From Mesorhizobium ciceri biovar biserrulae WSM1271 (GTDB lineage Bacteria > Pseudomonadota > Alphaproteobacteria > Rhizobiales > Rhizobiaceae), in contig NC_014923.1 in assembly GCF_000185905.1 (NCBI RefSeq), forward strand, positions 248,001 through 312,000: a DNA stretch of 64,000 bases, in the 5' to 3' direction. The notes below the pieces were generated by a model. That model saw only the letters and a list, made by a program, of their open reading frames with translations. It ran no database searches and was not told the DNA's origin. Position numbers and translations under genes: made by a program. Shown here piece after piece: positions 10,164-25,124 of the stretch; position 1 is the stretch's first letter, and every line of letters starts with the position of its first letter.

Positions 10164-11018
10164 CTACTTTACACTGCATGCCAGCGATTCCGGAAATTGA
10201 CAGGGTTCGCCGAGCGCCGTGAAGGCGACCCGCTCGACCTGCAGGGAAAGCTTGCGGCCCGGATCCGCGAACGCTCCCATCCAGCCCTTCATCGTATCGC
10301 TACCCCAAAAGCTGAAGAATATCTTCTGTGCATGGCTGGGCAGCTTCGCCGGGTCGGTAATCGTGTTCACCAGTTGGCCGTTGACGTACCATCGCAAGCT
10401 GTCCTTCTGCCAGACGAAGGCGTAGTCGTTGAAGGCCTTCTCCGTGCCGCCCGGTACGTCGACCAGTTTCTCGTTCTTGCCCTTGCCCGCGATATAGGCG
10501 TTGACCTGCACCTTGGAGGTGTCCTTGGTCAGGACCTCGAAGTCGATCTCGTCCCAGGGCTGCTTGTCGCTTGGACCTATATAGGTGAAGAACGCGGCGT
10601 TGAGGCCGGAGCCGGTATCGGTCTTCAGCCGTGCCTCATAGGTGCCATAGCCGAAGCGCTGCTTGGTCTGGATCTCGCCGCAGACGTAGTCGCGATCCTT
10701 CAGCGTCTGCTTTTCGAAGCCGAGCGACAGCACACCATTCGACAGTTCGACCATATTTTTCGACCAGGTGCAATTCTGATGGCTGCCGTTGCTCCAGCCG
10801 TCGGAAACATACCAGCGCGTGCGGTCGAAGCTTTTGAAATCATCGACAAAGGACGGCGATGTCGGAATGTCCTGGGCATGGGAAGGGGTTGCCAGGAAAC
10901 CGCCAAGAGCAGCCAGCAGCAACGCACCGAGCGACCCCAGCCGCCGGGCGGCTTGTCCGGTCCGATATGCGAGAGGCGGTGCGTCAATTGCCGTCGTAGG
11001 TTTCGGATTCCAATTCAT
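10164..11018 (-). CDS. exoK: Secreted family 16 beta-glycanase, ExoK-like
   Basis: This GH16 endo-glycanase carries WDEIDFE at about residues 155-161, where the first Glu is the nucleophile and the last the acid/base. Starting at the ATG at 11018 (AGGTGAG upstream) gives 284 residues with a long N-region, the hydrophobic segment LGALLLAALGGFLA and cleavage likely after SHA (about residue 48). S. meliloti ExoK is a secreted endo-1,3-1,4-beta-glycanase that trims nascent succinoglycan to lower molecular weight. The same role is likely here, outside the cytoplasm. It lies upstream of ugd and downstream of the coiled-coil gene on the minus strand. The cleaved linkage depends on the polymer actually made. 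Confidence 0.88.
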   Translation of the reverse strand: MNWNPKPTTAIDAPPLAYRTGQAARRLGSLGALLLAALGGFLATPSHAQDIPTSPSFVDDFKSFDRTRWYVSDGWSNGSHQNCTWSKNMVELSNGVLSLGFEKQTLKDRDYVCGEIQTKQRFGYGTYEARLKTDTGSGLNAAFFTYIGPSDKQPWDEIDFEVLTKDTSKVQVNAYIAGKGKNEKLVDVPGGTEKAFNDYAFVWQKDSLRWYVNGQLVNTITDPAKLPSHAQKIFFSFWGSDTMKGWMGAFADPGRKLSLQVERVAFTALGEPCQFPESLACSVK

Positions 11019-11172
11019 ACCAAACTCACCTTTGCGCTGTGTGTCCCCAACCCAAAGTCGACGTTCGAACCGCTCCTGCACGGGCCAACCTTGACCTTCC
11101 TTGTGACCCTCTCGATTGCTTCTGCTTCCCGCCTTGCATCAAATCTGTTGCAACAGTTCCGAGCCTTCACGT

Positions 11173-11568
11173 TCAATCTCTGCCGGCGCCTGCCGGCCAG
11201 GCGAATTCCGCCGCGGCGGCCGAGGAGGCATCCTCGTCAAAGACCGTATCCAGCGAATGACGGAGCTCTTTCATCATGCCGTCCTGGCGCGACAGCGCCG
11301 CGATGCGGCGCTCGCAATTCAGGATCGACTGTGTCAGTGCGCTGACTTCCGAAGACCGCTTGTCGGAAGCAGAGCCGTTTTCCATCGCTTCGACCAGAAA
11401 GGCGGCGTTGGTCGACGTCGTCCGGTAGCGATTCTCAAGCCCGGTTCTCTCGGCCTCGATCTCGGCCGCAATCTGCTCGAACAGCTTTGCCAGACGATCG
11501 AGACGTGAAACATCGGCCTGACGGTCGCGGGCCGGATCCCTTGATCTGAAACCGAATATCGAGGCCAT
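11173..11568 (-). CDS. Uncharacterised coiled-coil protein
   Basis: I do not recognise this 131-residue protein. It begins MASIFGFRSRDPARD and then forms a long charged amphipathic helix region (about residues 17-105) rich in Glu, Arg, Leu and Ala, with heptad-like spacing, ending in an Ala-rich tail. There is no signal peptide or membrane segment. It lies between the lasso-linked glycosyltransferase and exoK, on the same strand as both. A TGC-N3-GCA site lies about 157 bases upstream of its start. It may be a small cytoplasmic scaffold or regulator of polysaccharide synthesis, but nothing in the sequence proves this. Confidence 0.55.
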   Translation of the reverse strand: MASIFGFRSRDPARDRQADVSRLDRLAKLFEQIAAEIEAERTGLENRYRTTSTNAAFLVEAMENGSASDKRSSEVSALTQSILNCERRIAALSRQDGMMKELRHSLDTVFDEDASSAAAAEFAWPAGAGRD

Positions 11569-11724
11569 GAACTCAGGTTCCCGTCATCGCCGGCTTGTGG
11601 GCCGGGCTTCTGGCCGATCCCCGCAGCCGGGGCTCAAAAACTCGTGTTGCGTTGTCGTGCTCCTTTTGAGGGAGAGACATCAGACCAATCCGATCGGGGG
11701 CCAAGTTCGGCTGGTCGTCCACTA

Positions 11725-11739
11725 TGCTGCACCGCAACA
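11725..11739. promoter_or_regulatory. TGC-N3-GCA operator candidate upstream of the coiled-coil gene
   Basis: TGCTGC-ACC-GCAACA matches the motif found at the exo promoters in both half-sites. No convincing -35/-10 pair overlaps it. It lies in the 290-base gap between the coiled-coil gene and the GT2 gene, which otherwise shows nothing I can name. Confidence 0.45.
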
Positions 11740-11858
11740 TAGACTGCCATCGTCGGAGCCGCGAGGCAACCACCCAATTCGTAAACTCATAAATCCGGCC
11801 GAAATGGTTTGCGTGATGACATGCCGCGAGTGGACAAATCGCTGCATCGGGACCGCTC

Positions 11859-12881
11859 TCAGCGTTCCTTGCCCGTGCTGGTTCCGGCCATCAGAAAGCG
11901 CAGCGGCGGCACAGGCTTTTGGCTGGACACAAGGCCGACACGACGAAACAGCGCCTCGAGCTTGTCGGAAGCCACGCCCTGGACGATGGGGACGAGGTTG
12001 GACAGGCTGGCGAAGGCGTAAGCCGCAGCCGAGCCCAGCCCCCGCTCGGCCTTGACGTCAAGGAAATTACGCAGCCGATATTTGTCGCGCACGTGCCGTT
12101 CATGCCGCCGCAGCACCGCCTTCGAGCCTTCCGGCAGGCTGTCGATCGCCAGCAGCGCCAGATCCGCATCGGCCAGACGCTTCAGGTCCTGGGTCTTGTG
12201 GCGGCCGCTCAGGGAATCGGCGCGGACGATGGCGCCGTAGCCGCAGGAGCGAATGACCTTGAACCGCGCCCCGCATGCGACCGCGCGGGCGTAGAGTTCA
12301 TAGTCCTCGCCCAGCCGCAGGCTCTCGTCGTAGCTCAACCCATGGCGGTCGAGGAAGGCACGGCTGATCACCGGCTTCAAAAAGCCCAGTTCGCCCCTCT
12401 GCACGCGGCGCCTGGAGATGTTGCCTTCGACGAAACGCTCGAAATCGAGGAATTCCGGATCGGCGGCAAATTGCGGCGCGACGATTTTCGTCGCGTCGCC
12501 TGTCGCATCATCCCTGATCAGCATGATGTTGTCGGCGGCGAAATCCCAATCGGCGCCGGCAAACAAGTTGCGAAACCGGCCTTCGAGGAAGAAATCGTCG
12601 GCATCGAGAATGCTGATGAACGGCGATTTCGAGCCGGCGATGGCTGCGTTGCGGGCAAAGGAGGGGCCGCGATTGACATCGAGGCGCATCACGGAGAGCC
12701 GCCCGCTGCCATCATCGGCGGATCGTGCGACACCGGCGGTGTCGTCGGTGGAGGCATCGTCGACGACCACGACCTCCGCCACTTCCGGTTCGCGCAATGC
12801 GGATGCGATGGCGACGGCGATTGTCGCTGCGGCGTTTTTTGCCGCGATGATCACGCAGACCTCGGATTTCGTCATCGACAT
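11859..12881 (-). CDS. Family 2 glycosyltransferase beside the lasso cluster
   Basis: This 340-residue GT2 enzyme starts MSMTKSEVCVIIAAKNAAAT, with VVVVDDASTDDT at about residues 37-48 and ISILDADDFF (DxD region) at about 89-98. The frame is open for another 180 codons upstream, but that part is the antisense of the nucleotidyltransferase gene, so the ATG at 12881 is the right start. It follows the nucleotidyltransferase gene on the same strand by 91 bases and is divergent from the lasso operon. It may add a sugar to the exopolysaccharide or decorate the lasso peptide. The neighbours allow either reading. Confidence 0.85.
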   Translation of the reverse strand: MSMTKSEVCVIIAAKNAAATIAVAIASALREPEVAEVVVVDDASTDDTAGVARSADDGSGRLSVMRLDVNRGPSFARNAAIAGSKSPFISILDADDFFLEGRFRNLFAGADWDFAADNIMLIRDDATGDATKIVAPQFAADPEFLDFERFVEGNISRRRVQRGELGFLKPVISRAFLDRHGLSYDESLRLGEDYELYARAVACGARFKVIRSCGYGAIVRADSLSGRHKTQDLKRLADADLALLAIDSLPEGSKAVLRRHERHVRDKYRLRNFLDVKAERGLGSAAAYAFASLSNLVPIVQGVASDKLEALFRRVGLVSSQKPVPPLRFLMAGTSTGKER

Positions 12882-12972
12882 GGATTTGCCTCTCGTACAG
12901 GTAATATCGATTTGCCCTCGCCCCGTACTCGTTCGATGCACTACAGAATTGCCATCAGCATCCAATTTACCT

Positions 12973-14097
12973 TCAGCGACTCGCCGGCCGCTCGAAGATG
13001 CGGCGGCTGATATCGGCGGACGCCGCCCAGCCTGCTTCGGCCAGATAGCGGACCGGCGCGCGGCCGCACAGTTCCCAAAGCACCGTTCGCCGCTGCGGCC
13101 ACCGCAGCGACGGCAGCCACGGCGCGATGACCATGCTGAGCAGATCCTCATTGCCGATGCGCGGCAGGATCCTGGTCGCGCGCTGCGACAGCAGCGTGCC
13201 GGCACCGCCGAGTAGCACGTCGGCGGCGCGCAGGCCAAGCAGCAGCGTGTCGTCCAGACCTTGCGCGGTAGCGGCATCGAGCAAACGCTGCTGATCCGCC
13301 TCGTCGAGGCGGCCGGCGCTGGCGCCGATATCACAGACGTATCCGGCGCAGGGTTCCCGGTTGAAAAGTGCCTTGGCGACGCTGATGCAGGACAAAAGCA
13401 ATGTATCGGCCACCGAGGTGAACGGCACCGTCGCACCGGCGATTTCGACCTGTCGCTTGCGCCGCAGGAACCCGTCCGCGTCGCGCGGGCTTGGCGAGCC
13501 GGGCTGCTGGAGGCGGTAGTGGAGATCGACGGTGGACGACCTCGGCCCGTCGTCCCGGGTCATGTGCTGTTCGCCGAGGAAGCGGACCCACCAGACGGAG
13601 CTCGACTTGCCTGATACCTCATAGCCGATCTTGCGAAGCGCATCACGCGCCCTGAAAAATCCGAGCGGCGAAACCAGGATGTCGACATCGCCCGAGGGCT
13701 TCATAAAATGGTCGTCGTAGAGAAGTTGCTGCTGGAACGGACCCTTCAGAAAAACGAAATCGATCTCGCTGGCGCGCAGCACGTCCTGGATCGCCATCGA
13801 ATCCATGATGCAGGACGCGTTCATCGAAACCGTTTTCCTGCGGTAGGTGTCGAGCCATTGGAAAAGCTTAGTTGGCCTCTGAAGCGCGGGTGCGCGCGAA
13901 AGCGCCTTGAGGACAAAGACGGCGACCTTGTTCAGCCTGGCAATCTCGGCAATTTTTTCACCGTCAAGATGGCGCATCGAAACGTCGCCCGCGCCCGGGC
14001 CGGCGAAAAACAATCGCAGGCAAGCCTGCACATAGGCCACCTCGCCGGCACAGCCGGCGGCGCGCAATCGTTCGTATGAGCCATCCGGCAAGGCCAT
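12973..14097 (-). CDS. Nucleotidyltransferase-family protein of lasso clusters
   Basis: This 374-residue protein has VFLKGPFQQQLLY at about 115-127 followed by PSGDVDILV at about 134-142. This fits the KG...Y...GDxDxLV pattern of the uncharacterised nucleotidyltransferase family (PF14907 type) that accompanies many RiPP clusters. It is divergent from the lasso precursor across a 514-base control region. In the pseudomycoidin system, as I recall, a homologue works after the kinase and decorates the phosphorylated C-terminal residue of the peptide. The kinase and a C-terminal serine are both present here, so the same step is plausible. The acidic pair Asp137 and Asp139 would bind metal. Substrate and product are inferred. 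Confidence 0.75.
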   Translation of the reverse strand: MALPDGSYERLRAAGCAGEVAYVQACLRLFFAGPGAGDVSMRHLDGEKIAEIARLNKVAVFVLKALSRAPALQRPTKLFQWLDTYRRKTVSMNASCIMDSMAIQDVLRASEIDFVFLKGPFQQQLLYDDHFMKPSGDVDILVSPLGFFRARDALRKIGYEVSGKSSSVWWVRFLGEQHMTRDDGPRSSTVDLHYRLQQPGSPSPRDADGFLRRKRQVEIAGATVPFTSVADTLLLSCISVAKALFNREPCAGYVCDIGASAGRLDEADQQRLLDAATAQGLDDTLLLGLRAADVLLGGAGTLLSQRATRILPRIGNEDLLSMVIAPWLPSLRWPQRRTVLWELCGRAPVRYLAEAGWAASADISRRIFERPASR

Positions 14098-14195
14098 TTA
14101 GCGCACAGTCTCCCAAGAAAGCGTTTCGCGCCGACACTTATGCTGCAAGTGCGAAGCAAGCATCACCAAAAACCTCGATGCCGTAAAGCCTTTCC

Positions 14196-14210
14196 TTCTG
14201 CAGTGCGAAT
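14196..14210. promoter_or_regulatory. Degenerate TGC-N3-GCA site upstream of the nucleotidyltransferase gene
   Basis: TTCTGC-AGT-GCGAAT followed by a T-tract. The left half and spacer agree with the exo-promoter motif, but the right half has one mismatch in the core. It lies 99 bases from the nucleotidyltransferase start. Confidence 0.35.
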
Positions 14211-14515
14211 TTTTGCCACCAAAGCGTCTATCGAGGTGGCATCGGAAAGCAGTGAAAACCGCGGTTGAAATGTCCCTTGCCACGTCGGCTTAGGCAATCT
14301 CCGGACGATTTCTCAAATGGAAATTCTTTTCATTAGAGAGGCCTAAATATAGGCACAACGCAAACGGGTTATGCAAGCAAAATCAAATGCTTAAAGAATC
14401 AGCACAGGCGCGATCGTCGTGCACAAGGAATCGGCTAAAAAATGACAAGTTTTAGGCATGCCGCTCATGTGACGACGCCAGCAACCGTAATTGATTAACA
14501 GAAAGTAAAACAGTC

Positions 14516-14556
14516 TTGACTCATAAATGCTGCCGTGCAGCTATTGCATTGCAGCA
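14516..14556 (+). promoter_or_regulatory. Lasso operon promoter with tandem TGC-N3-GCA operators
   Basis: TTGACT (14516-14521) and GCTATT (14540-14545) are spaced by 18 bases and form a good promoter about 65 bases ahead of the precursor ATG. Two operator copies, TGCTGC-CGT-GCAGCT (14528-14542) and TATTGC-ATT-GCAGCA (14542-14556), cover the spacer, the -10 box and the start point, which suits repression. Confidence 0.6.
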
Positions 14557-14611
14557 TAAAAGTGCTGACGGCACTCGACAGGCCGTTTCCAGTCCTAAAT
14601 CGGAGAGTAAA

Positions 14612-14764
14612 ATGGAACAGAATGTTGAAAAGCATGAATATGAAACGCCAAGCCTGACGGTCCATGGTTCGATTGAGACCATCACCCAGGGCGGCGGCGG
14701 CAGCACGGCGATCGACGCATCGTTCCCCGCGCATACGCCGATTGGCGACCTGACGTTCTCCTGA
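14612..14764 (+). CDS. Lasso peptide precursor
   Basis: This 50-residue peptide has the full lasso-precursor pattern. The leader (residues 1-26) contains YETPSLTVHGSIETIT, matching the YxxPxLxxxG...T recognition motif bound by the B1 protein, with Thr25 at the conserved -2 position. Cleavage after Gln26 would free a 24-residue core starting with Gly27. Asp35 is then core position 9, so Gly1-Asp9 closure of a nine-membered macrolactam ring is predicted. The core begins with four glycines, contains His and two prolines in the tail, and ends in Ser50. The kinase gene nearby suggests that this serine is phosphorylated. The ATG at 14612 follows GGAGAG; the open frame upstream to 14516 lies within the promoter. 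The remaining lasso genes follow on the same strand. Confidence 0.9.
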   Translation: MEQNVEKHEYETPSLTVHGSIETITQGGGGSTAIDASFPAHTPIGDLTFS

Positions 14765-14901
14765 GACTTACAGCCGATTCCAGAGTGACATGTTGGGACT
14801 CTGGATTCAAAAGCAGACGTAAGAGGGGTCGGGGGGCCAGCCTCCCGATTTCTCCTGCGCCACCTGGAGATGTCGCAGCGTTTTGTCAGCGAGGTTTGGG
14901 G

Positions 14902-15216
14902 ATGAACGGGGAGCTATCCGACCGTGATCTGGGCGACCACGATAGCGTGTGCGCGACCAAGGATGCCGTGGCTTGCGAGTTCGGAGATGGCTTGGCGCTG
15001 CTCAATCTCAAATCCAATGTCTACTACAGCCTGAATGGCGTCGGCGCCTTCATCTGGGATTTGATCCAGGAACCCCGGTCGATCGGCGACATCCGCAGCG
15101 CCGTGCTTGCGCGCTACAATGTCGACCCGGCGCGCTGCCAGGCCGATGTCGACGCATTGCTGAAGGGCCTGGCCGATAATGGGCTTGCGAGACGGCATCA
15201 TGAGGCACTTGTCTAA
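14902..15216 (+). CDS. Lasso leader-recognition protein B1 (PqqD-like RRE)
   Basis: This is a 104-residue PqqD-family protein. GLALLNLKSNVYYSLNGVGAFIWDLI (described in parts: LNLKSNVYYSLN then AFIWDLI) is the diagnostic strand-helix segment, followed by a winged-helix-like region (IGDIRSAVLARYNVD and ADVDALLKGLADNGL). Such proteins bind the YxxPxL leader motif and present the precursor to the B2 peptidase. The ATG at 14902 follows GAGG by 7 bases. It starts 137 bases after the precursor and overlaps the next gene by 17 bases, so B1 and B2 are separate but translationally linked proteins, unlike the fused B of many proteobacterial clusters. Confidence 0.88.
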   Translation: MNGELSDRDLGDHDSVCATKDAVACEFGDGLALLNLKSNVYYSLNGVGAFIWDLIQEPRSIGDIRSAVLARYNVDPARCQADVDALLKGLADNGLARRHHEALV

Positions 15217-15763
15217 GCCGGTCCAGCACAAGTCCCTGGTTTCACGGGCCCTGGTTTCGCGGGCCTTGTCTTCGCGGGCCACGGCTTTACGGCAGGAACC
15301 GGCGAGAGAAACAAACGTCAAGCAGACGAAGCGCGGGGGAAGCCGGCGCGGGCTGGTCAGGATTTTCTCCCTGAGTGGCTCGGAAATGATCTTCCTTGGC
15401 TATTGCCTGCTGGTGGTGGCGACAGTTCGGCTGGGGCTGACGCTGTTGTCCTACAATCGTGTACGCAGCCTGGTGACGCGCCTCGACGCGCCGCAGTGCG
15501 CCTCAATGGGCGAACTGCGGCGTGTCGCCTGGGGCGTTGCCGCCGCGGCCCGTTTCGTCCCTTACGCCACGTGCCTGACCCAGGCGCTCTCCGGCCAGTA
15601 TATTCTCGCCCGCCAAGGCAATGAATCGACGATACGCATCGGCATCGAACGTGGCACAGGCGAGCAGTTGAAAGCACATGCCTGGCTGGTCAGCGACAAC
15701 CATATCGTGCTTGGCGGATCGATCGACGGCTTCGCCCATCTCGTCGACCACGGCAGCCGATGA
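15200..15763 (+). CDS. Lasso leader peptidase B2 (transglutaminase-like)
   Basis: The C-terminal 140 residues match the lasso B2 cysteine-peptidase family: catalytic Cys125 in YATCLTQALSGQYIL and His160 in KAHAWLVS, with an Asp at 167 as likely third residue. A hydrophobic segment (about 63-84) precedes the catalytic part. It would cut the leader off the precursor after Gln26. With the ATG at 15200 the protein has 187 residues, longer than the roughly 150 of typical B2 proteins. The extra N-terminus carries a five-residue repeat (xLVSR) encoded by 15-base DNA repeats and may be poorly conserved or untranslated. It ends in an ATGA overlap with the cyclase gene. Confidence 0.86.
   Translation: MRHLSKPVQHKSLVSRALVSRALSSRATALRQEPARETNVKQTKRGGSRRGLVRIFSLSGSEMIFLGYCLLVVATVRLGLTLLSYNRVRSLVTRLDAPQCASMGELRRVAWGVAAAARFVPYATCLTQALSGQYILARQGNESTIRIGIERGTGEQLKAHAWLVSDNHIVLGGSIDGFAHLVDHGSR
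15234..15293 (+). repeat. 15-base tandem repeat inside the B2 gene
   Basis: Three clear units (15234-15248, 15249-15263, 15264-15278) and one decayed unit (15279-15293), each like CCCTGGTTTCGCGGG, encode LVSR-type pentapeptides. The length is a multiple of three, so unit gain or loss would keep the frame. Confidence 0.7.
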
Positions 15764-17682
15764 GCGGCGTCGCCGGAATCCTGTTGTGCGGAGCAAACGC
15801 ACCGGCGGTCGCGGCGGCCGACATTCAGCAAATGCTGGCGCGCATGCGCCATCGTGGTCCTGACGGCAGTTCTTGGTGGCTGGACACCAGCATCGCCCTT
15901 GGCCACGCCTGGCTCAACACATCGGATGAAGTCGGTCCGGGCCCTTTGACGATGGCTGGGGGCCGGCTCGCCATCACCGCCGATTGCCGGCTGGACAACC
16001 GTGACGAGTTGCTGGCCAGGCTCGGTATCCGCGACCAGTCGGTAGCCGACGCGATCGTGCTGATGCGGGCCTATCTGCGCTGGGGCGAAGCCTGCCCGGA
16101 GCATCTGCAAGGCGATTTCGCCTTCGCCATCTGGGATGACGAGCGGCAATCGCTGTTTTGCGCGCGCGATCATTTTGGCGTCAAGCCGTTCTACTACCAC
16201 GCGGCGGACCGGCGTTTTGCCTTTGCGTCGGAGATCGGGCCGATCCTCGGCGTCGAGGGTATCCGCGCACGTGTCAACGAGCGCCAGATCTCCGGCTTCC
16301 TGGCCGGGCTTCCCGACGACCCGCAGTCGACCCCCTACAGCGATATATTCAGCCTGCCGGCCCGGCACAGCCTAACCGTTACCGCGCAACAGGTGATGCT
16401 GCGCCGATACTGGCAGATAGAGCCGTCGGCGCGGCCCTTGCGGTCGGATGCATCGGAGGAATTCGCCCATCTGTTCTCGCAATCGGTGCGCAACCGCATG
16501 CGAGGGACCTCGGCGGTCGGAGCAATGCTGAGCGGCGGCCTCGATTCCTCGTCTATCGCCTGTGTCGCCGGCCTGCAGAATGCCGCCGCGCGCAAGCCGA
16601 AGCTGCCAACCTTCTCGCTGATTTTCGAGAAGGGCTCGCCGATGGACGAGCGGCCCTTCATCGATGCCGTTCTCGACCAGCAGAAGGTCGACGCGACGCT
16701 GATCCCGGTTGGCAACTATGCCCCATTTGCCGAATTCGAGCGCGTGCTGGAAGAACAGGAAGGAACGTTCCTGGCGCCGGGCCTGACGCTCACCCGCGGC
16801 ATCTACCGGACTGCCGGCGCCAAGGGCATCAAGGTGCTGCTGGACGGCCATGGTGGCGACGAGGTCGTTTCACAAGGCCACGGCCACCTGCACGAGCTTG
16901 CGAATGGCGGCCGATGGATGGATCTGTGGCGCGAGGTCCGCAGCGCCTCCAACACCTATGGCGACAGCACGCTTGGCCTTTATCTCCAGTTCCTGACCCT
17001 CTACGGGCCGGCCTGGCGCATCGCCAGGCTGAGGCATATGGCCAACCGTGCCCTGAACAAGATCCGCAAGCCCGCGCAAGTTTCGCGCGCACGAAGCTGG
17101 CGCGACCTGATCAATCCGGACCTGGCCAAGCGCACCGAGCTTGTCGACCGGTTTCACCGGGCCGGCTACATGCCGCCCGGCGTCCAGGCCAGCGATGCCT
17201 TGAGCCATCGCTGGATCCTGTCGAACGGCTATGTCCCGCATGCTTTCGAGGTTCTCGACAAAGCCGCCGCCAATTTCGGGGTCGAGCCGCGCTACCCCTT
17301 CTGGGACAAGCCGCTGGTCGAGTTCTGCCTGGCGCTGCCGGGCGAGGAGAAGCTGAGCCACGGTTTTGGCCGCTATGTGCTGCGCCGCGCCATGCAAGGC
17401 GTATTGCCGGAGGCGGTGCAGTGGCGGCGCGACAAGATCGACTTCACTGCCAATCTCGTCAACGGCATGCTGCGCAACCATCGCGACCTCCTGGAACAGC
17501 TGCTGGTCTCGGATGCGAAACGCATCGCCCCTTACGTCAATCTGCCGCAAGTGAGTGCCGCCTATGCGCGGCTGCTGCGCCAGCCCGATCAGGCAGCCCC
17601 CCTGGATGTCCAGTATGTCTGGCGCTCGGCCTCGCTGTCGCTCTGGCTGCGGCAGCTCCAGCATGGCGGGAGCCCCGCATGA
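15760..17682 (+). CDS. Lasso macrolactam synthetase C (asparagine-synthetase-like)
   Basis: This 640-residue protein has an N-terminal class II glutamine amidotransferase-like domain (RHRGPDG at about 28-34, GDFAFAIWD) and a C-terminal ATP-pyrophosphatase domain with the PP-loop SGGLDSSS at about 259-266 and LLDGHGGDEV near 365. It should adenylate the Asp9 side chain of the core and let Gly1 attack it, closing the ring. Residue 2 is Ser rather than the Cys that cleaves glutamine in true asparagine synthetases (MSGVAG against MCGIAG), so it should not make ammonia, which suits a peptide-cyclising role. The start overlaps the B2 stop and its own stop overlaps the kinase start, so the genes are coupled. 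Confidence 0.9.
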   Translation: MSGVAGILLCGANAPAVAAADIQQMLARMRHRGPDGSSWWLDTSIALGHAWLNTSDEVGPGPLTMAGGRLAITADCRLDNRDELLARLGIRDQSVADAIVLMRAYLRWGEACPEHLQGDFAFAIWDDERQSLFCARDHFGVKPFYYHAADRRFAFASEIGPILGVEGIRARVNERQISGFLAGLPDDPQSTPYSDIFSLPARHSLTVTAQQVMLRRYWQIEPSARPLRSDASEEFAHLFSQSVRNRMRGTSAVGAMLSGGLDSSSIACVAGLQNAAARKPKLPTFSLIFEKGSPMDERPFIDAVLDQQKVDATLIPVGNYAPFAEFERVLEEQEGTFLAPGLTLTRGIYRTAGAKGIKVLLDGHGGDEVVSQGHGHLHELANGGRWMDLWREVRSASNTYGDSTLGLYLQFLTLYGPAWRIARLRHMANRALNKIRKPAQVSRARSWRDLINPDLAKRTELVDRFHRAGYMPPGVQASDALSHRWILSNGYVPHAFEVLDKAAANFGVEPRYPFWDKPLVEFCLALPGEEKLSHGFGRYVLRRAMQGVLPEAVQWRRDKIDFTANLVNGMLRNHRDLLEQLLVSDAKRIAPYVNLPQVSAAYARLLRQPDQAAPLDVQYVWRSASLSLWLRQLQHGGSPA

Positions 17683-18665
17683 TGCCGCGCAACGAGCCGC
17701 TCGCTCTATGCAATGATGATGCCTTTTCGCATGGCCGGGTCAAGCGAGAACGCCGCTTCTACCGGGCCTACGGCCTGACCATCGCGTCGGAGGTGACGTT
17801 GCCCGAACTGCAGCCGGCGGCGCCGGGGGCGGCGGATGTCGTGATTGCCGTCGGCGCGATCGACCTGCCAAAGCCCTCGCCCGAAGCCGCGACCGACTTT
17901 CGCTTCGAGCCGGACCGGCAATATCTGGCGTGGCATGCCGTGGGCGCGTTCCTGATCACCGATTCCAGCCGTATCGACATCGAACCGGCGCCCGGCGTCG
18001 ACGACGCGCTGCTCGCGTTTCCGCTGCTTGGTCCGGTCATGGCGCTGCTCTTGCACCGGCGCGGCCTGCTTGTCCTGCATGCCAGTGCCATCGCCGCCGC
18101 CGGCACGAGCGCCATCTTCATGGGTGACAAGGGAGCCGGCAAGTCGACGACCGCAAGTGCGATGATCCGGGCCGGGCATCGACTGCTTACCGATGACGTG
18201 GTGGCGCTGGACCTCGCCAATCCGAGTGAGCCAATGACCGTTCCGGGCTTTCCGCAGATCAAGCTGGCGGCCGACGCCGCGGCGGCGATCTCGCTTGGGG
18301 AAGCGGAAGTGCGGCCGCAAGTGCATGCGGCGATCGACAAGATGCAGCATCGCCTGAACGGTGGCTTTTCGGGCGACGAGGTGCCGGCGACCAGGATCTA
18401 TATCCTCGAGCGCGGCGAAAGGGCTGACATCACGCCCTTGCCCGCCATTGCCGCCCTGCCGGCCATCATCAAATTCTCCTATGTGACGCGCTTCGGCCGC
18501 GCGGCCCTGCCCGGCGACTTCGCGACGGCGCATCTTCGGCAATGTTCATGGATTGCCAACCATATCGGCGTGTACCGGCTGGAAGTCCCGACGGGCCTGG
18601 ACAGGATCGGCGAAGCCGTGGAACTGATCGAAAAGGATCTGTCGGCTGGCAGCCGGCGGTTGTGA
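17679..18665 (+). CDS. HPr-kinase-like peptide kinase of the lasso cluster
   Basis: This 328-residue protein has a Walker A loop GDKGAGKST at about residues 149-157, preceded by LLVLHASAIAA and followed by LLTDDVVALD, the layout of HPr(Ser) kinase/phosphatase C-terminal domains in RiPP clusters. It lacks the usual carbohydrate PTS neighbours. In paeninodin-type lasso clusters such kinases phosphorylate the hydroxyl of the C-terminal serine of the precursor, and this precursor ends in Ser. The start overlaps the cyclase stop (ATGA at 17679). It is followed 8 bases later by the exporter gene. Activity on the peptide is inferred from family and context. Confidence 0.85.
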   Translation: MMPRNEPLALCNDDAFSHGRVKRERRFYRAYGLTIASEVTLPELQPAAPGAADVVIAVGAIDLPKPSPEAATDFRFEPDRQYLAWHAVGAFLITDSSRIDIEPAPGVDDALLAFPLLGPVMALLLHRRGLLVLHASAIAAAGTSAIFMGDKGAGKSTTASAMIRAGHRLLTDDVVALDLANPSEPMTVPGFPQIKLAADAAAAISLGEAEVRPQVHAAIDKMQHRLNGGFSGDEVPATRIYILERGERADITPLPAIAALPAIIKFSYVTRFGRAALPGDFATAHLRQCSWIANHIGVYRLEVPTGLDRIGEAVELIEKDLSAGSRRL

Positions 18666-18673
18666 GCGCAACC

Positions 18674-20518
18674 ATGTCGAAGCCCCCAATCCTTCGCCTG
18701 TCGCTGTTTCGAGAAATTGCCGCCTTCGGCGCCACCATTGCCCGGATCGGCGGCCGGCGAACGTGGACGGCGCTGTTCTTCCTCATCCTCGGCAGCCTGA
18801 CCGAGGGCATTTCGATCCTGCTGCTCGTCCCGCTGCTGCATCTGGTCGGACGTGCCGACCAGGATTTCGCTGTTCGGCTGCCCAACGATGATTTCGTGCG
18901 CTGGCTGGTGCCTGATGGCACGCTGCAACTGACGACCGTGCTTTGCGCGCTGGTCGGGCTTGTTGCGGCGCAGGCGGCGTTCAATCGCTTCAAGTCGGTC
19001 TACATGGCCAAATTGCTGTTCGATTTCATCAATCGCGTTCGCATGAACCTGTTCGAAAGCATCGGCAAGGCGCGCTGGGGCGTTTTTACACGCATGCGCA
19101 GTTCCGATCTCGATCATGCCCTGACCGGCGACATCGACCGCGTCCAGGGCGCGGCTTTCTCACTGCTGATGCTGGTGCAAATCGCCGTTCTTCTGGTCGG
19201 CTATCTCCTGGTTTCCGTGTTCATCTCGCCGGTCATGACGCTGTTTGCCGTGGTCGTCGGCATCCTGATGTTCGTGGCGCTGCGGCCCTTCCGGGCACGG
19301 GCCACTGCCTTCGGCCGTGTGCTGACCGCCAATCGCCAGGACCAGTACCGGACGGTCTCGGAATTTCTCGGCGGCATCAAGGTGGCCAAGAGCCTGAACG
19401 TCGAGGACAGCTATTTCGCGCAGCTGCGGTCGACGCTTGAGAGGATGAAGGCCGACAACATCGACTATGTGCGCAACAGCACCATCGGCACTGCTGTATT
19501 CCAGGTGGCGAGCGTCGTGGGCCTGAGCCTGTTCATCTATGTGGCTTTGGCCCGCTTCAACCTGTCGCTGGCCGAGATCGTCGTCCTGCTCCTGGTCTTC
19601 ATGCGTATCGCGCCGCGCTTCATGGACATGCAGACGCAGGCCCAGCAAGTGCTGATCAACCTGCCCGCCTTTACGGCAATGCGCAGCCTGCAGGCACGTT
19701 TCGACGCCGAACGCGAACCCGGCCATACCGAGTTCGCCGACGCCGGGACACTCTCCCTCAATACGGGATTGAATATTCGCGGCGTGTCCTTCGCCTACGG
19801 AGATGCTGTCGACAAGGCGGTGGTGAGCGGCATTACCTTCGGCCTGCCGGCCGGCAAGGTCACCGCCCTGATCGGGCCGTCCGGATCGGGCAAGAGCACG
19901 ATCGCCGACATGCTGCTTGGCCTGCTGGAGCCCACCACTGGCAAGATGCTTGTCGATGGCGTCGAGATCGATGCCAGCAATCGCCGTCGCTGGCGCGACC
20001 AGGTGGCCTATGTGCCGCAGGACGTGTTCCTCCTGCACGACACGATCGCGGCGAACCTGCGCCTCGCCGCGCCACGGGCCAGCGATGGCGATCTGTGGGC
20101 CGCGCTGCGTCAGGCGCACGCCGGCGAGTTTGTCGAACGGCTCGACCTCAGGCTCGAGGCGGTGGTCGGCGATCGCGGCGTGCGGCTCTCGGGCGGCGAA
20201 CGTCAGCGCATCGCGCTCGCGCGCGCGCTGCTGCGCAAGCCGTCGCTGCTCATCCTCGACGAGGCGACCAGCGCGCTCGACTGGCAGAACCAGTCGCTGA
20301 TCGCCAGGTCGATCGACGGATTACGCGGTACGATGACGATCCTGACCATCGCGCACCGGCCGTCGATGATCGCCTTCGCCGACTGGGTGGTGGCGATGGA
20401 AAACGGCCGTATCGTCGAGGTCGGCCAATATCAGCGGCTGAAGGAAAAAACCGGCAGCCGGTTGTCGAGGATGCTGTTGGGGGAACAGTCGGAGAGCGAA
20501 CCCGCTGATGTGGCGTGA
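18674..20518 (+). CDS. Lasso peptide ABC exporter (fused membrane and ATPase domains)
   Basis: This is a 614-residue half-transporter. The N-terminal membrane domain (about 30-320) has hydrophobic segments such as ALFFLILGSLTEGISILLLV and LLVGYLLVSVFI. The C-terminal ATPase has Walker A GPSGSGKST (about 401-409), signature LSGGERQ (about 505) and Walker B LLILDEATSALD (about 525). It works as a dimer in the inner membrane and would export the mature lasso peptide, also giving self-protection. The frame is open upstream, but the ATG at 18674, eight bases after the kinase stop, is the natural start. It is the last gene of the A-B1-B2-C-K-D operon. A polysaccharide or lipid exporter is the alternative, less likely by context. 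Confidence 0.86.
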   Translation: MSKPPILRLSLFREIAAFGATIARIGGRRTWTALFFLILGSLTEGISILLLVPLLHLVGRADQDFAVRLPNDDFVRWLVPDGTLQLTTVLCALVGLVAAQAAFNRFKSVYMAKLLFDFINRVRMNLFESIGKARWGVFTRMRSSDLDHALTGDIDRVQGAAFSLLMLVQIAVLLVGYLLVSVFISPVMTLFAVVVGILMFVALRPFRARATAFGRVLTANRQDQYRTVSEFLGGIKVAKSLNVEDSYFAQLRSTLERMKADNIDYVRNSTIGTAVFQVASVVGLSLFIYVALARFNLSLAEIVVLLLVFMRIAPRFMDMQTQAQQVLINLPAFTAMRSLQARFDAEREPGHTEFADAGTLSLNTGLNIRGVSFAYGDAVDKAVVSGITFGLPAGKVTALIGPSGSGKSTIADMLLGLLEPTTGKMLVDGVEIDASNRRRWRDQVAYVPQDVFLLHDTIAANLRLAAPRASDGDLWAALRQAHAGEFVERLDLRLEAVVGDRGVRLSGGERQRIALARALLRKPSLLILDEATSALDWQNQSLIARSIDGLRGTMTILTIAHRPSMIAFADWVVAMENGRIVEVGQYQRLKEKTGSRLSRMLLGEQSESEPADVA

Positions 20519-20626
20519 GCCGGCGGCCAGGACGCGTCGCGCCGAAACGGATTCACGCGGCGCTTTGGTCCCTTTGTCTCGAAGGATGTCGTTGCCGCCA
20601 AACCGGCCACGTTTGAGCAGTCTGCA

Positions 20627-20902
20627 TCAATGCAGGCCGCGCCTGGCACCGCCGAGCTTCTCGCTTTCGGCGACCTCGGGTGCGTTCAGTTTGCGCTCGG
20701 CGTCACGAGCTATGTCGGCAGGCGTCGGCGCGCTCCTGGCGATCATGGTGTAGATGAGCACGAAATAGCCGGCCTGAATGGTCACGGCGCAGATGATGAC
20801 ACGCACCAATATCGTGCCTATCGACGCACCGCCCAGCCAGGACCAGCCGACGACGATCGCCAGAGCGAAAATCATCCCGAGGATGAATTTTGGAAGTGCC
20901 AT
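20627..20902 (-). CDS. exoX: ExoX-like exopolysaccharide production repressor
   Basis: With the ATG at 20902 this is a 91-residue protein with two hydrophobic segments (FILGMIFALAIVVGWSWL and ILVRVIICAVTIQAGYFVLI) followed by a charged tail containing DIARDAERKLN. This matches the small inner-membrane ExoX/SyrA family, which lowers exopolysaccharide synthesis by acting on the first glycosyl-phosphate transferase ExoY. It sits divergent from exoY, as in S. meliloti, which strengthens the call. The frame is open to 21088, but the added 62 residues have no family look. The Shine-Dalgarno sequence for 20902 is weak, so the start is uncertain. Confidence 0.75.
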   Translation of the reverse strand: MALPKFILGMIFALAIVVGWSWLGGASIGTILVRVIICAVTIQAGYFVLIYTMIARSAPTPADIARDAERKLNAPEVAESEKLGGARRGLH

Positions 20903-21130
20903 ACCCAACAGCCCATAAACCGGCTCGGGTATTATCGCGATTGCCCCACCCGAGCGCCGTCCCTTGTCATGTGGGCTTGTTAAGGTCGCCCACTCTCGAC
21001 CGGTTGCTTCCGGCCTTTTCCACCTGTCGTCACCGTGACAGGTATAATTTGCAATTCTATTAAGGCGAGCAATAGGCGGCAAGGGCAACTTCGGTTATTT
21101 TTGATCGAGCTTTTGCGATCGACTCTGCCA

Positions 21131-21145
21131 TGTTGCAATGCACGC
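21131..21145. promoter_or_regulatory. Partial TGC-N3-GCA site between exoX and exoY
   Basis: TGTTGC-AAT-GCACGC keeps the TGC-N3-GCA core but loses the outer right half. It lies 229 bases from the exoX start, so its target is unclear. Confidence 0.3.
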
Positions 21146-21436
21146 AACGGGAGCTAGGCCGATATCCTCTCGTCGATATTTTTCAGTAAAATGGCCAATA
21201 TTAAGTAGTATTTTATATGGTTTTGACCAAGCATCACGGCATGATGAAGCACTAGTTTGTACCTCGCCTTGGCAAATAGGTAGGTCCGCCTAAAAACCGC
21301 CCCACAAAGGCCTCTATTTTTTCGGCTGTGCCCATTTATTGTCACAAATGTGCTAAATATGCCGAAATTTGTGCATGGCAAGCTTATTATTTAGTCATTT
21401 CATGACGTGACTATTTCAACGGGGTGGTAAATTGTG

Positions 21437-21466
21437 TGTTGCGCTGCAACATTTTTTTGGTATCGT
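21437..21466 (+). promoter_or_regulatory. exoY promoter with TGC-N3-GCA operator
   Basis: TGTTGC-GCT-GCAACA (21437-21451), then a T-tract, is the best copy of the motif, with perfect 6-base arms. TTGCGC (21439-21444) and TATCGT (21461-21466) are 16 bases apart and form a plausible promoter, with the operator over the -35 box. The predicted leader to the exoY ATG is about 30 bases and contains GGAG at 21492. Confidence 0.62.
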
Positions 21467-21503
21467 GTGGTGAACCATTCGTTCAACGCATGGAGTTTAC
21501 GGC

Positions 21504-22181
21504 ATGAGGGACGTTGCCAAGTCGGCCACCGCGAGCTTTTCGCAGGCTGACATCGATTTTCCGCCGCCGATCGGCGGCCTGCTCAAACGCAGCTTCGATA
21601 TCACCGGTTCACTGATTGGCTTGATCGCCCTCAGCCCGCTATTTGTTATGATAGCGCTGCTCGTCAAGTTTTCCGACGGCGGCTCGATTTTCTACGGCCA
21701 CAGGCGAATCGGGCGGGGCGGACGGATTTTTCCGTGCCTGAAGTTCCGCACCATGGTTCCGGACGGCGACAAGGTGCTGGCAGCCTATCTCGCCACCAAC
21801 CCGGACGCCAACGCGGAATGGATCGCGACCCGCAAGCTGAAGAACGACCCGCGCGTCACCCGCGTTGGAGCAGTGCTGAGGAAACTCAGCCTCGATGAGT
21901 TGCCGCAGATCATCAACATCCTGCAGGGCGATATGAGCCTTGTCGGTCCGCGTCCGGTTGTGCGCGACGAACTAGAGATCTATGGCACATCCGCCGTCTA
22001 CTATCTGAAATCGCGTCCGGGCCTGACCGGCCTGTGGCAGGTCAGCGGCCGCAACGATGTGTCCTATGACAGCCGCGTCGCCTTCGACCGTCACTATGTC
22101 GAGAACTGGTCGCTGTTCGAGGACGTTCGCATCATCATCAAGACCGTCCCGGCCGTCTGGATGTCGCGCGGTTCTTACTGA
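21504..22181 (+). CDS. exoY: ExoY-like undecaprenyl-phosphate sugar phosphotransferase
   Basis: This 225-residue member of the bacterial sugar transferase family starts repeat-unit synthesis by moving a sugar-1-phosphate (galactose in S. meliloti) to undecaprenyl phosphate at the inner membrane. One membrane segment ([20 protein letters not shown]) is followed by [29 protein letters not shown] and GPRPV, the signature blocks of the catalytic domain, and by [19 protein letters not shown]. The ATG at 21504 follows GGAG by 8 bases. It is divergent from exoX and leads an exoY-exoF transcript. Loss of such an enzyme stops polymer synthesis, so this promoter is a key control point. Confidence 0.93.
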
Positions 22182-22269
22182 CCGGCCGGTGGCCAATGCC
22201 AGACATTGGCGTCGGCCATTCGACGCAAGCTCATCGGGCGATGGGGCTATAGCGGATCGGAACGTTGAG

Positions 22270-23547
22270 TTGAAAACAGATTTGTTCGAAACCTTTCGCA
22301 GCGGCCCGGATTCCGGCCGGCTGCGGCGGGCGCGTTTGCTGGCCACATGCCTTGCCATGGCCCTCGTCGTCCCGCACATCGCCGCCGCCGGCGACTATCG
22401 CCTCGGCTCGCAGGACAAGCTCACCATCCGCGTCGCCGAATGGCAGACCGTGGAAGGCACATTCCGTGACTGGTCGGCGGTGAATGGCGAGTACACGGTC
22501 GGTCCATCCGGCACGCTGTCGGTGCCGTTCGCCGGCGAACTGCCGGCCTCCGGCAAGACCACGTCCGAAATCGCGGCGGCGATCGGCGAGGCTTTGCAGA
22601 AAAAGCTCGCTTTGTCAGACAGGCCGGAAGCCTCGGTCGAGATGGCGCAGTTCCGGCCCTTCTACATTTCGGGCGAAGTCCAGAACCCCGGCCAGTTTCC
22701 TTATGTGCCCGACCTGACGGTGTTGAAGGCCATCAGCGTCGCCGGAGGCATCCGGCGAAACGCCGACTACGGCCCCCAGCTCGGCAAGGACCTGGTCACC
22801 GCCAAGGGCATGTTCGACATCTCCGACGACCAGCGCATCCGACTGATCGTAAGGCGCGCCCGCATCGATGCGGATATGGCCGGAAAGGCGAGTTTCGACG
22901 TGCCGAAGGAGGTCGAGGGCGATCCGAGACTGCCAGCCATCGTGGCGGACGAGATGACGATCCTGACAGCGGACCAAAAGGCGCTGAAGCTGAAGCTTGA
23001 AGCGCTCGACGATCTCAAAGGGGTTTTGGAATCCGAGATCGAATCGCTGCAGAAGAAGATCGTCAACCAGCAGCAGCAGGTCGACTTGGCGCAGCAGCAG
23101 CTCGCCAGCATCGGCCCGCTGGCGCAGAAAGGCCTGATCGCCAACGCCCGACTGCTGGATTCGCGCCAGTCGGTTGCCGACCTGCAGGGCAAGATCCTGG
23201 ACTACGAAACCGCCATCCTCACCGCCAAGCAGGCGATCAGCAAGGCGAAGCAGGATGCTATCGATGCCCAGAACACCTTGAGTTCAAGTCTCGCCACTGA
23301 CCGGCAGCAGACCGAAGCCGACCTGAACGAGGCCGCGTTGAAGGTGAACATGCAGAAAGGCCTGATAGCCCAGGCCAGCGATCCCGCGATGGCGGCCGCT
23401 ATGACAAATGATCAGCAGCCGACCCTGCTCTATTCACTGGTGCGCAATGTCGACGGCAAGACCAGCGAAATAGCCGCCAAGGAAGAAACCCCGGTGCTGC
23501 CTGGCGATGTGATCAAGATCAAGCTGGCGCCGCTGGCCAGCCAGTAG
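22270..23547 (+). CDS. exoF: ExoF-like outer-membrane polysaccharide export protein
   Basis: The protein has a signal-like N-terminus (LLATCLAMALVVPHIAAAG), then GDYRLGSQDKLTIRVAEW and a SLBB-type region (YISGEVQNPGQFPYVPDLTV), as in Wza/OPX export proteins. A long coiled coil (about residues 245-350, rich in Gln, Lys and Glu) follows, and the end LPGDVIKIKL closes the domain. Starting at the TTG at 22270 gives 425 residues, close to the 421 of S. meliloti ExoF. It would form the periplasmic/outer-membrane exit for the polymer. It lies 88 bases after exoY. The non-ATG start is inferred from length and from the signal peptide position. Confidence 0.88.
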   Translation: MKTDLFETFRSGPDSGRLRRARLLATCLAMALVVPHIAAAGDYRLGSQDKLTIRVAEWQTVEGTFRDWSAVNGEYTVGPSGTLSVPFAGELPASGKTTSEIAAAIGEALQKKLALSDRPEASVEMAQFRPFYISGEVQNPGQFPYVPDLTVLKAISVAGGIRRNADYGPQLGKDLVTAKGMFDISDDQRIRLIVRRARIDADMAGKASFDVPKEVEGDPRLPAIVADEMTILTADQKALKLKLEALDDLKGVLESEIESLQKKIVNQQQQVDLAQQQLASIGPLAQKGLIANARLLDSRQSVADLQGKILDYETAILTAKQAISKAKQDAIDAQNTLSSSLATDRQQTEADLNEAALKVNMQKGLIAQASDPAMAAAMTNDQQPTLLYSLVRNVDGKTSEIAAKEETPVLPGDVIKIKLAPLASQ

Positions 23548-23574
23548 ACCAACTTCCAACAGATCCGGTGTTTC

Positions 23575-23617
23575 GAGCCAGAGCCTCACCCGACAAACCG
23601 GGATGAGGCTCTGGCTC
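23575..23617 (+). terminator. Strong hairpin after exoF
   Basis: A 14-base perfect inverted repeat (GAGCCAGAGCCTCA / TGAGGCTCTGGCTC) with an inner CCCG/CGGG pairing lies 28 bases after the exoF stop and before the convergent exoQ end. Only a weak T-rich run follows, so it may stop transcription or protect the 3' end. Confidence 0.55.
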
Positions 23618-23736
23618 AGTTGTTTGAACATCTCCCTGCGGAAACTATAATAGCCGTCACGGGATCGAGGCTTCCCGTCCGAGCACATGCTTGCTCAAAA
23701 AGGAAGACCGCCCCCTTCAGCCCGCGAGATGATAAT

Positions 23737-25050
23737 TTATGAGGGACCGGCGCCCGCCGGATGGCCGGCATACCGAGGCCAGTCAGTCTCGCCCCCGGCC
23801 GCGTCAGCCGGCTCCAGAGCCGGCGACCGCCGCCTGCGGGTAACAGGCAGCCGCGCCAGCTTGAAGAAGCTGAAATACATCAGGAAAGAACCCATGATGT
23901 AGGGGTTGAGTATCTCGACCTCGACGAAGGAGCGGATCAGCAGCAGGACCATCACGCCGAAAAGGATCACCGAGTCCGCCTGCCATGCCTTGAAGATCAC
24001 CGCCGAGACGTGGCCGTATAGCGTGCGCAGCATGATCAGCGACACCAGCGTCGCTCCGACGAAGCCGAGTTCGACGAGGGCCTCGATATAGGTGTTGTGG
24101 AAGTGGAAGCCGGTGCGGGTGGTGATGTAGAATTCGTTCCACAGCCGCTCGGCTTCAGCGAAACCCTGCACCCAATAGGCGGCATAGCCGACGCCGAGAA
24201 TCGGCGATTTCTGGACCGTGTTCCAGCCTTGCTCCCACAGGTAGGTTCGCCCGGTGAGCGTCGAATCCTTGCCGAAGAGGCCGAGGACGAAGTCCATCAA
24301 CCCGAGATTCAAGGCGACGAAGGCCGTCACGACCAGCAGGCCGGCGCCGATCAGGAAGATGACCCGGCGATAGCGTCGTGACAGAAGTTTGCTCATCGCA
24401 AGAAGCGCCACCAGCGCCAGAACCGCGGGTATCGAGGCCATCGAGGTGGCGGAATGCGAGGCGACCAGGACATAGGCCGACAGCAGCACGACGGGCACCG
24501 CCAGGATGAAGCTCAGCCGGCCGCGCCTGTAGAACGCAAGGAAGACAACGCAGAAATAGATGCCGAGCGAGCCGACAAAGCCGATCTGGTTCTTGGAGGC
24601 GAAGGCGCCGACGAAGTTCACGGTGCCGTCGAGGACATCCTCGGAATAGTTCCCGACCTTCAGCGAATAGATGAGGACGACAAATATCCCGATCAGCGCC
24701 CCTATGGTCAGCGTGCGCACGCTGACGGTGCGCGCAGCTACGTAGGCGCAGGCAATATGGGAAAAATACTGGACCGACGTCCTTGCGGTGACGCCGGGAG
24801 CCTGCGACCAGAAAACCGAGAAGCAGACATAGGCAGCAAACAGCAGCGGCAGCCAGGCGCTGGACAGATGCCTCACAAACCGCCGGTAGTCGACCAGGAC
24901 GAGCGGGAGCCAGACCGCATAGTAGGCCAGGATCAATATCTGGCCGAAGATGACCGAATAAGAAAACGCCCAGATCGAAACGGCTACGGCAAAGGCGCCA
25001 TAGACCGAATTCTTCTCGGGATCGATCAGCAGGGACTTTGGAATCTTCAT
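23737..25050 (-). CDS. exoQ: ExoQ-like polysaccharide polymerase (Wzy family)
   Basis: This is a polytopic membrane protein of 437 residues with about ten hydrophobic segments and the large periplasmic loop typical of the O-antigen ligase/polymerase family. The loop region contains LTGRTYLWEQGW, ILGVGYAAYW and FHFHNTYIEALVELG, which are family hallmarks. It would join lipid-linked repeat units into polymer on the periplasmic face. I use the ATG at 25050, preceded by GGGA; the frame is open to 25116. In S. meliloti exoQ follows exoF on the same strand, whereas here it is inverted and has its own promoter with a TGC-N3-GCA operator. Confidence 0.86.
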   Translation of the reverse strand: MKIPKSLLIDPEKNSVYGAFAVAVSIWAFSYSVIFGQILILAYYAVWLPLVLVDYRRFVRHLSSAWLPLLFAAYVCFSVFWSQAPGVTARTSVQYFSHIACAYVAARTVSVRTLTIGALIGIFVVLIYSLKVGNYSEDVLDGTVNFVGAFASKNQIGFVGSLGIYFCVVFLAFYRRGRLSFILAVPVVLLSAYVLVASHSATSMASIPAVLALVALLAMSKLLSRRYRRVIFLIGAGLLVVTAFVALNLGLMDFVLGLFGKDSTLTGRTYLWEQGWNTVQKSPILGVGYAAYWVQGFAEAERLWNEFYITTRTGFHFHNTYIEALVELGFVGATLVSLIMLRTLYGHVSAVIFKAWQADSVILFGVMVLLLIRSFVEVEILNPYIMGSFLMYFSFFKLARLPVTRRRRSPALEPADAAGGETDWPRYAGHPAGAGPS

Positions 25051-25124
25051 CTCAGAGTCCCGCCGACACGACCCAGGGCCGGCAAGCCATGAGCCGGCCG
25101 GAATCTTCGCAGACATGGGCGTGC

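Follow-up and report, generated by a model that had tools for sequence, protein, structure and literature searches.

A predicted phosphorylated-type lasso peptide operon in the exopolysaccharide locus of Mesorhizobium

Known lasso peptide systems and the Mesorhizobium locus

Mesorhizobium ciceri biovar biserrulae WSM1271 harbours, on contig NC_014923.1 (one of two in a 6.69-Mb genome), six genes that by their sequence form a lasso peptide operon in the order A-B1-B2-C-K-D, located at 14612-20518 of the window, i.e. the whole stretch of 64,000 nucleotides analysed here (contig positions 248,001 to 312,000). Among the closest described systems are the paeninodin cluster (PadeA-K) and the lasso peptides of the SyanK/ThcoK kinase type, which have B1, B2, C, an HPr-like kinase and a precursor with a terminal Ser (PMC9266682). 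Strain WSM1271 possesses the same set, including a kinase with the residues His-Lys-Asp-Asp, whose Pfam score is below the gathering score with a significant E-value, and a precursor that ends in Ser. It differs from the paeninodin type in the core sequence, an extra nucleotidyltransferase (NTase), the location in an exopolysaccharide (EPS, exo) locus, and conservation across the genus.

A second related system is pseudomycoidin from Bacillus, in which the kinase PsmK and the nucleotidyltransferase PsmN give a phosphorylated and hexosylated C-terminal Ser (PMC9266682). The Mesorhizobium unit also combines a kinase with a nucleotidyltransferase (PF14907, lost along with the operon), the two being likened by description. 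In Bacilli, paeninodin-like lasso genes were described within capsular polysaccharide loci together with a kinase, an NTP transferase and an MsbA-like transporter, and in P. alginolyticus a lasso gene and an EPS gene rose together (PMC13381572). The window shares this embedding and these three functions, but belongs to a different phylum, and here the linkage was followed across a genus and comes with empty sites and promoter boxes. The LPP type, which has an SpI-like signal peptidase and no cyclase, does not correspond to this locus, as a cyclase is present; the genes scanned from 10164 to 25116 included no SpI signal peptidase and no second RRE. Precursor and cyclase exceed the cut-offs of the NCBIfam models NF033528 ('lasso_cyano') and NF033535, and distant relatives occur in cyanobacteria, with a cyclase identity of 37-39%.

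The biosynthetic chemistry is of a known kind and the genomic setting is unusual. A literature search, with subscription journals mostly outside its scope, found no account of a Mesorhizobium lasso peptide or of this cluster. The wide fixation in the exo locus across a rhizobial genus is new to us, and so are the clean empty sites, the PhaR-like boxes and the pattern of selection. What the genes are, how the precursor is built, and the conservation, selection, linkage and empty sites are read from the sequences themselves. We consider it probable that the operon and a divergent nucleotidyltransferase gene, seven genes in all, would produce one modified lasso peptide that is released with EPS under PhaR-like control and acts at the EPS layer.

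Genes of the lasso operon

A preliminary description of this DNA had proposed a complete operon with split B1 and B2 proteins, an asparagine-synthetase-like cyclase, an ABC exporter and overlapping genes. All six genes, encoded on the forward strand, were found at the positions it gave; the divergent nucleotidyltransferase gene had been omitted, as had the conservation across the genus with its deletions and the PhaR-like promoter boxes. None of the three findings named there as refuting the operon was obtained: the 14902 protein has an RRE-type match, the 15760 protein matches a lasso cyclase, and related genomes carry a conserved precursor. The predicted leader-binding protein B1 (14902..15216, start uncertain) is of the PqqD/RRE type, with a Pfam PqqD match of 3.1e-20; its matches to the lasso PqqD models do not reach their strict cut-offs. 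The separate gene B2 (15200..15763, alternative ATG at 15179) encodes a putative transglutaminase-like leader peptidase matching NF033537 with 63.9 bits (cut-off 33), and its Cys125 and His160 are unvarying in nine of nine aligned sequences. C (15760..17682) would be the asparagine-synthetase-like macrolactam cyclase, with 794.7 bits for the lasso cyclase model NF033535 against a cut-off of 525. The closest named relatives are Mesorhizobium, and C is 99% identical in M. ciceri WSM4083. RRE, peptidase and cyclase of a lasso cluster are thus all recognised by Pfam and NCBIfam, and the NCBIfam scores of the precursor, B2 and C are far above chance.

The predicted HPr-kinase-like protein K (17682..18665) matches Pfam Hpr_kinase_C with 4.5e-7 and 30 bits, compared with a gathering score of 33.3. 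An alignment of 13 sequences shows no change at His133, Lys154, Asp171 or Asp172, in line with the His-Lys-Asp-Asp motif described for kinases of lasso peptides (PMC9266682), and K is predicted to phosphorylate the C-terminal Ser. D (18674..20518) encodes a putative MsbA/HepA-like ABC exporter with ABC_tran and ABC_membrane domains; its best NCBIfam match, the HepA family, is below the cut-off. The pairs B1/B2, B2/C and C/K overlap, the gap between K and D is 8 nucleotides, and A and B1 are separated by 137 nucleotides. An RNA element between A and B1 (hairpin near 14775-14805) was rejected, since its fold hardly surpasses that of shuffled sequences (z -1.4, 20 of 200 as good) and its conservation is poor.

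Precursor and predicted peptide

The precursor A (14612..14764, forward strand, ATG start) has the 50 residues, the YxxPxL leader motif and the Thr at -2 that had been noted before, and it scores above the cut-offs of both NF033528 (38.9 bits, cut-off 33) and NF033521 (24.6, cut-off 19). Its leader of 26 residues, MEQNVEKHEYETPSLTVHGSIETITQ, contains the YxxPxL...G motif, and the core of 24 residues, GGGGSTAIDASFPAHTPIGDLTFS (codons 14690-14761), has Gly1, Asp9 and the C-terminal Ser24, and no Cys. As a rule, lasso cores begin with an N-terminal Gly and carry the ring acceptor, Asp or Glu, at core position 7-9. A bond between Gly1 and Asp9 would close a nine-residue ring, and the predicted product is a threaded 24-residue class II lasso peptide with a phosphorylated and probably glycosylated C-terminal Ser. 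The computed masses are 2258.07 ([M+H]+) for the plain lasso form, 2338.04 for the monophospho form and 2499.08 (M) for the phospho-hexose form.

A conserved precursor was found in 94 of 94 same-genus loci examined. Ninety-two of them, defined by an ATG-start 'MEQ', were compared residue by residue; the divergent precursor of locus L249 and that of L267, with a non-ATG start, were excluded. Gly1 and Asp9 are present in 92/92, and the core positions G1, D9, F12, P13, T16, P17, T22, F23 and S24 are unvarying in all 92. The pairing of a kinase with a C-terminal Ser, also proposed earlier, is borne out by the HPr-kinase-like K and this constant Ser24. The precursor of the window is shared without change by 25 of the 92 (itself counted), and its core by 31.

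Conservation and position in the exo locus

Within the genus, C was searched at E <= 1e-100 in 146 Mesorhizobium genomes and was detected in 103, including that of the window; 94 of these lasso-bearing loci were examined. The order A-B1-B2-C-K-D-exoX is kept in 94/94, and the full order ugd-exoK-hyp131-GT2-NTase-A-B1-B2-C-K-D-exoX-exoY-exoF in 91/94, the exceptions being the short contigs L188 and L250, and L244, which lacks an exoK match. Another collection, which overlaps the first in some strains, contained the precursor in 64 of 64 near loci, 61 of them named Mesorhizobium. The preliminary description had located the operon between exoK and exoX. The exo locus and the exoX side were right, but towards exoK the unit is bordered by a GT2 glycosyltransferase gene in the position of exoU. 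As the order reported in M. loti is exoQFYXUK (PMC8227245), the lasso unit therefore lies between exoU and exoX.

Among the 43 genomes without C, eight lacked an exoK match and 35 loci were retrieved, of which L174 was on a contig too short, leaving 34 evaluated. All 34 lack A, B1, B2, C and K and retain exoK, GT2, exoY, exoF and exoQ; matches to ugd, hyp131 and exoX were obtained in 25, 31 and 32 of them, respectively. The gap between GT2 and exoX measures 120-702 bases in those 32 lasso-less loci versus 7315-7839 in 93 filled loci, and the gap between GT2 and exoY in the two loci without an exoX match is 1168 and 1179 bases. C-terminal scraps of D adjoin exoX in six to seven of the 34 loci, the count being 7 or 6 because a larger database changed the E-values.

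A FastTree tree of the exo flanks (133 rows) contains seven changes of lasso state, or six excluding L174, which entered the tree as lasso-less, so that one of the seven label changes is spurious. Since the four outside rows of the tree, on long branches, carry the unit, loss is the simplest reading of how the lasso-less state arose in the genus. For the deepest lasso-less clade (nine loci, with different genes before GT2) the absence could be original. Locus L235 has a full lasso unit and exo flanks within a lasso-less clade, which may reflect a regained unit or its sole retention.

A mobile insertion of recent date, placed in the exo locus by chance, would account for the 43 of 146 genomes without the unit and for L235 within its lasso-less clade. 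However, the unit occupies the same position in 94/94 loci and has exo neighbours outside the genus too, the empty sites bear deletion scars, and a search of 72,556 plasmid records at E <= 1e-60 gave two matches to C, no rhizobial one. In addition, C and the exo flanks diverge in parallel (Mantel r 0.89 over 90 loci, with 0 of 999 permutations as high). A mobile island was rejected on the constant position, the plasmid result and this co-divergence; an insertion of this kind is hardly credible, and the non-mobile setting stated in the preliminary description is upheld.

The divergent nucleotidyltransferase and its GT2 neighbour

The NTase gene (12973..14097, reverse strand; PF14907, Pfam 3.7e-30) reads away from A, from which 514 bases separate it, and by its co-occurrence is counted as the seventh gene of the lasso unit. 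Of the 94 lasso loci, 93 have this gene and the remaining one, L188, comes from a short contig; the gene is absent or a stub in 34/34 evaluable lasso-less exo loci, such as L149, where a match to NTase residues 1-27 remains. K118-G-P and D137/D139 are unvarying in eight aligned sequences. The predicted model (mean predicted local distance difference test score, pLDDT, 72.8) resembles the nucleotidyltransferases MenT1, TM1012 and ANT(2'')-Ia; FKRP, solved with CDP-ribitol, is a weaker match (best E 0.014). By analogy, the NTase is predicted to be a PsmN-like tailoring enzyme.

The neighbouring GT2 gene (11859..12875, reverse strand, Pfam 9e-23) is also present in lasso-less species. As a dedicated tailoring gene with this sole role it was ruled out: it is retained in 34/34 evaluable lasso-less loci and is therefore not solely a lasso tailoring gene. 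Locus L099 contains NTase (PF14907) and GT2 domains in a single frame of 743 residues (5234-7465, reverse strand) next to the lasso operon. In two order-level relatives, G609 and G643, the NTase lies within an open frame of 750 residues, perhaps the same GT2 fusion.

These genes raise the alternative of a lasso-glycan conjugate, in which NTase and GT2/ExoU would put a sugar on the phospho-Ser and an EPS or lipid-linked fragment would be tagged or capped with the peptide. The fusion frame of L099, the weak fold likeness to FKRP, the unvarying C-terminal Thr-Phe-Ser and the hexose on the phospho-Ser of pseudomycoidin (PMC9266682) agree with such a conjugate. Nonetheless, GT2 is present where the lasso unit is lacking, and an M. 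loti exoU mutant has truncated EPS, which assigns ExoU a role in EPS already (PMC8227245). We regard the conjugate as quite improbable. To our knowledge, moreover, no peptide is known in rhizobial EPS, which also speaks against it.

Selection, exchange and decay

The pooled pairwise ratio of non-synonymous to synonymous divergence (dN/dS) was calculated for the 92 'MEQ' precursors and for 400 random pairs each of C, D, K, NTase and GT2. It was 0.023 in the leader and 0.19 in the core (ring 0.33, rest 0.135), compared with 0.18 in C and 0.12 in GT2. The precursor is under purifying selection. This profile and the constancy of the core would not be expected of a peptide in an arms race, and a unit that is near-constant in most sister species hints at a coat-linked role rather than an ordinary antibiotic.

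An alternative to be weighed is a lasso peptide of the ordinary antimicrobial kind with a narrow spectrum, for which D would be the immunity pump and the exo position a frozen accident of vertical descent. An ABC exporter is encoded, and repeated loss and exchanged variants (L249, L255) suit a dispensable competition trait. Against this, the core is constrained, with nine residues invariant in every precursor compared, the exo linkage recurs outside the genus, and PhaR-like boxes are present. We therefore judge this explanation unlikely and prefer a peptide linked to the EPS layer.

Loci L249 and L255 have a common divergent core, GTGGDTALDGVFPIHTPKGQLTFS, and mutually nearest cyclases (17% apart) in different exo flanks; some exchange of the lasso unit in place thus seems to occur. 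Two further loci are decaying. In L267 the cyclase is broken into two frames and the precursor frame is open; in L268 the cyclase is rearranged, B2 contains a stop and the precursor frame is open.

Relatives beyond the genus

Outside the genus, relatives of C are rare: they were found in four genomes of other genera of the family (sample of 394, E <= 1e-70), in four of 397 genomes of the order outside the family, and in one of 385 genomes of the class outside the order. Eight of these genomes were tested for neighbours; G211, with a contig of 4.5 kb, was left out. In 6/8 (G315, G331, G415, G609, G643 and G849), NTase, exoY-like and exoK-like genes lie no more than about 18 kb from C, and these six include two other families. 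In G609 and G643, exoK, NTase, C and exoY are arranged as in the window. G755 and G922 gave no NTase match and no exoK match, and their exoY-like gene is solely on other contigs.

In L099, C is 44% identical and has the same exo neighbours. The Pyrinomonadaceae relative L107 is surrounded by glycosyltransferases and a polysaccharide synthesis gene. In the same metagenome-assembled genome, a second lasso-like precursor follows the kinase from 12176 onward, in the polysaccharide locus.

PhaR-like promoter boxes

In S. meliloti, PhaR/AniA binds the promoters of exoY, exoL and exoH, and EPS genes are repressed (PMC12542648). A weight matrix was derived from 18 sites of the promoters marked 'Efficient' in Table 3 of that source, in which binding is given per promoter and not per site; the threshold of 12.8 is the top score in the reversed window. 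Upstream of A a block from about -128 to the start codon is conserved. It contains two overlapping PhaR/AniA-like boxes on the forward strand, at 14525-14545 and 14539-14559 (scores 16.1 and 21.1). Another candidate box lies on the NTase side of the divergent promoter (14193..14213, score 15.3), and one precedes the exoY-like gene (21434-21454, score 16.3), where 92 of 93 loci have their best-scoring site near -70.

Eight sites score at least 15 in the 64 kb, at 2884, 2925, 11722, 14193, 14525, 14539, 21434 and 25139. All of them fall at 2.8-25.2 kb, the exo region, compared with 0-2 sites in each of 20 simulated windows. On the A side (140 bp) the threshold is reached in 90/92 loci versus 3.7% of random 140-bp stretches. 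It is also reached in 5/34 lasso-less gaps and in two of four loci of other genera (L184 and L185). A stricter PhaR pattern had 50 matches in the genome versus 22 for the pattern reversed.

PhaR/AniA-like boxes also stand at other exo transcription units (2884-2945, 11722-11742, 21434-21454 and 25139-25159), which suggests control of EPS linked to polyhydroxybutyrate (PHB) in the genus. The exact 11-mer TTGCAGCATAA, considered as a private box, occurs twice in 6.69 Mb, both times here. It was rejected, as 29/92 loci lack its 9-base core on both sides; the PhaR matrix was therefore used instead.

Proposed mechanism and its weighing

We infer the steps of the chemistry, control by PhaR and a role at the EPS layer as follows. 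B1 would bind the leader of A, K would phosphorylate Ser24 at the C terminus, B2 would cleave after Gln(-1), and C would form the Gly1-Asp9 amide around the threaded tail. The nucleotidyltransferase would probably attach a hexose or sugar-phosphate to the phospho-Ser, and D would export the finished peptide. The lasso unit may be switched with EPS via the PhaR-like boxes, and the peptide may act at the EPS layer on matrix, neighbours or plant.

We consider the unit to be fixed in the exo locus because the exo order is kept in nearly all loci of the genus and the exo linkage recurs in six of the eight genomes outside it. This fixation, together with the predicted PhaR switching, suggests that the peptide would be released during EPS production; its synthesis and export most likely go along with those of the exopolysaccharide. 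A more specific version is tentative: a phospho-glycosylated lasso peptide in the standing EPS programme, repressed by PhaR, may serve as matrix component or signal, possibly sensed by the legume or by rhizobia nearby.

Several observations weigh against the proposed link with EPS. The 92-94 loci share ancestry and are not independent. The exo locus survives without the lasso unit in every evaluable lasso-less locus, and EPS synthesis can therefore do without the unit. Outside the genus, exoK (or exoY) is placed differently in G315, G331, G415 and G849, and the exoK match of G849 is interrupted by a stop. In the Nostoc relative L103, no polysaccharide genes were present in the six flanking open reading frames scanned; with L107 as the opposite case, the polysaccharide linkage therefore recurs and is not a rule for all relatives. 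Regarding the boxes, the NTase side reaches 12.8 in only 35/92 loci (random 240 bp, 5.9%), and the intervals between A and NTase of L099 and L186 contain no PhaR box at this matrix score. Matrix scores of 12.2-17.9 were obtained in five distant loci (four cyanobacterial, one Pyrinomonadaceae; G+C 39-54%). Three phasin-like genes, which should have served as positive control, have no match to the stricter pattern within 20 kb.

The functions of lasso peptide phosphorylation and similar modifications remain to be unravelled, according to PMC9266682. Here, a phosphorylated-type lasso unit is nearly constant in 103 of the 146 genomes of a genus with legume symbionts among its members, and it sits in the locus whose EPS product is perceived in M. 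loti by the plant receptor EPR3 (PMC8227245). Species with and without the unit at the same intact locus constitute a natural experiment. If true, a role in the EPS programme would be a non-antibiotic function for phosphorylated lasso peptides.

Neighbouring genes of the exo region

Among the flanking genes, exoK (10164..11081, reverse strand) is predicted to encode an endo-beta-glycanase, with 445 bits for NF052392 (cut-off 350). The ExoX-like small membrane protein (20627..20902, reverse strand) matches NF052519 with 2.1e-9, below the cut-off, and the exoY-like sugar transferase (21504..22181, forward strand) matches Bac_transf with 7.8e-63. The labels exoY, exoF and exoQ are based on Pfam domains. 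The exo region also harbours a phosphoribosyltransferase-like gene (4572-5594, borderline Pfam score) and a GMC-oxidoreductase-like gene (7230-8672), which are candidates for the synthesis of riburonic acid, a sugar reported in the EPS of M. loti (PMC8227245).

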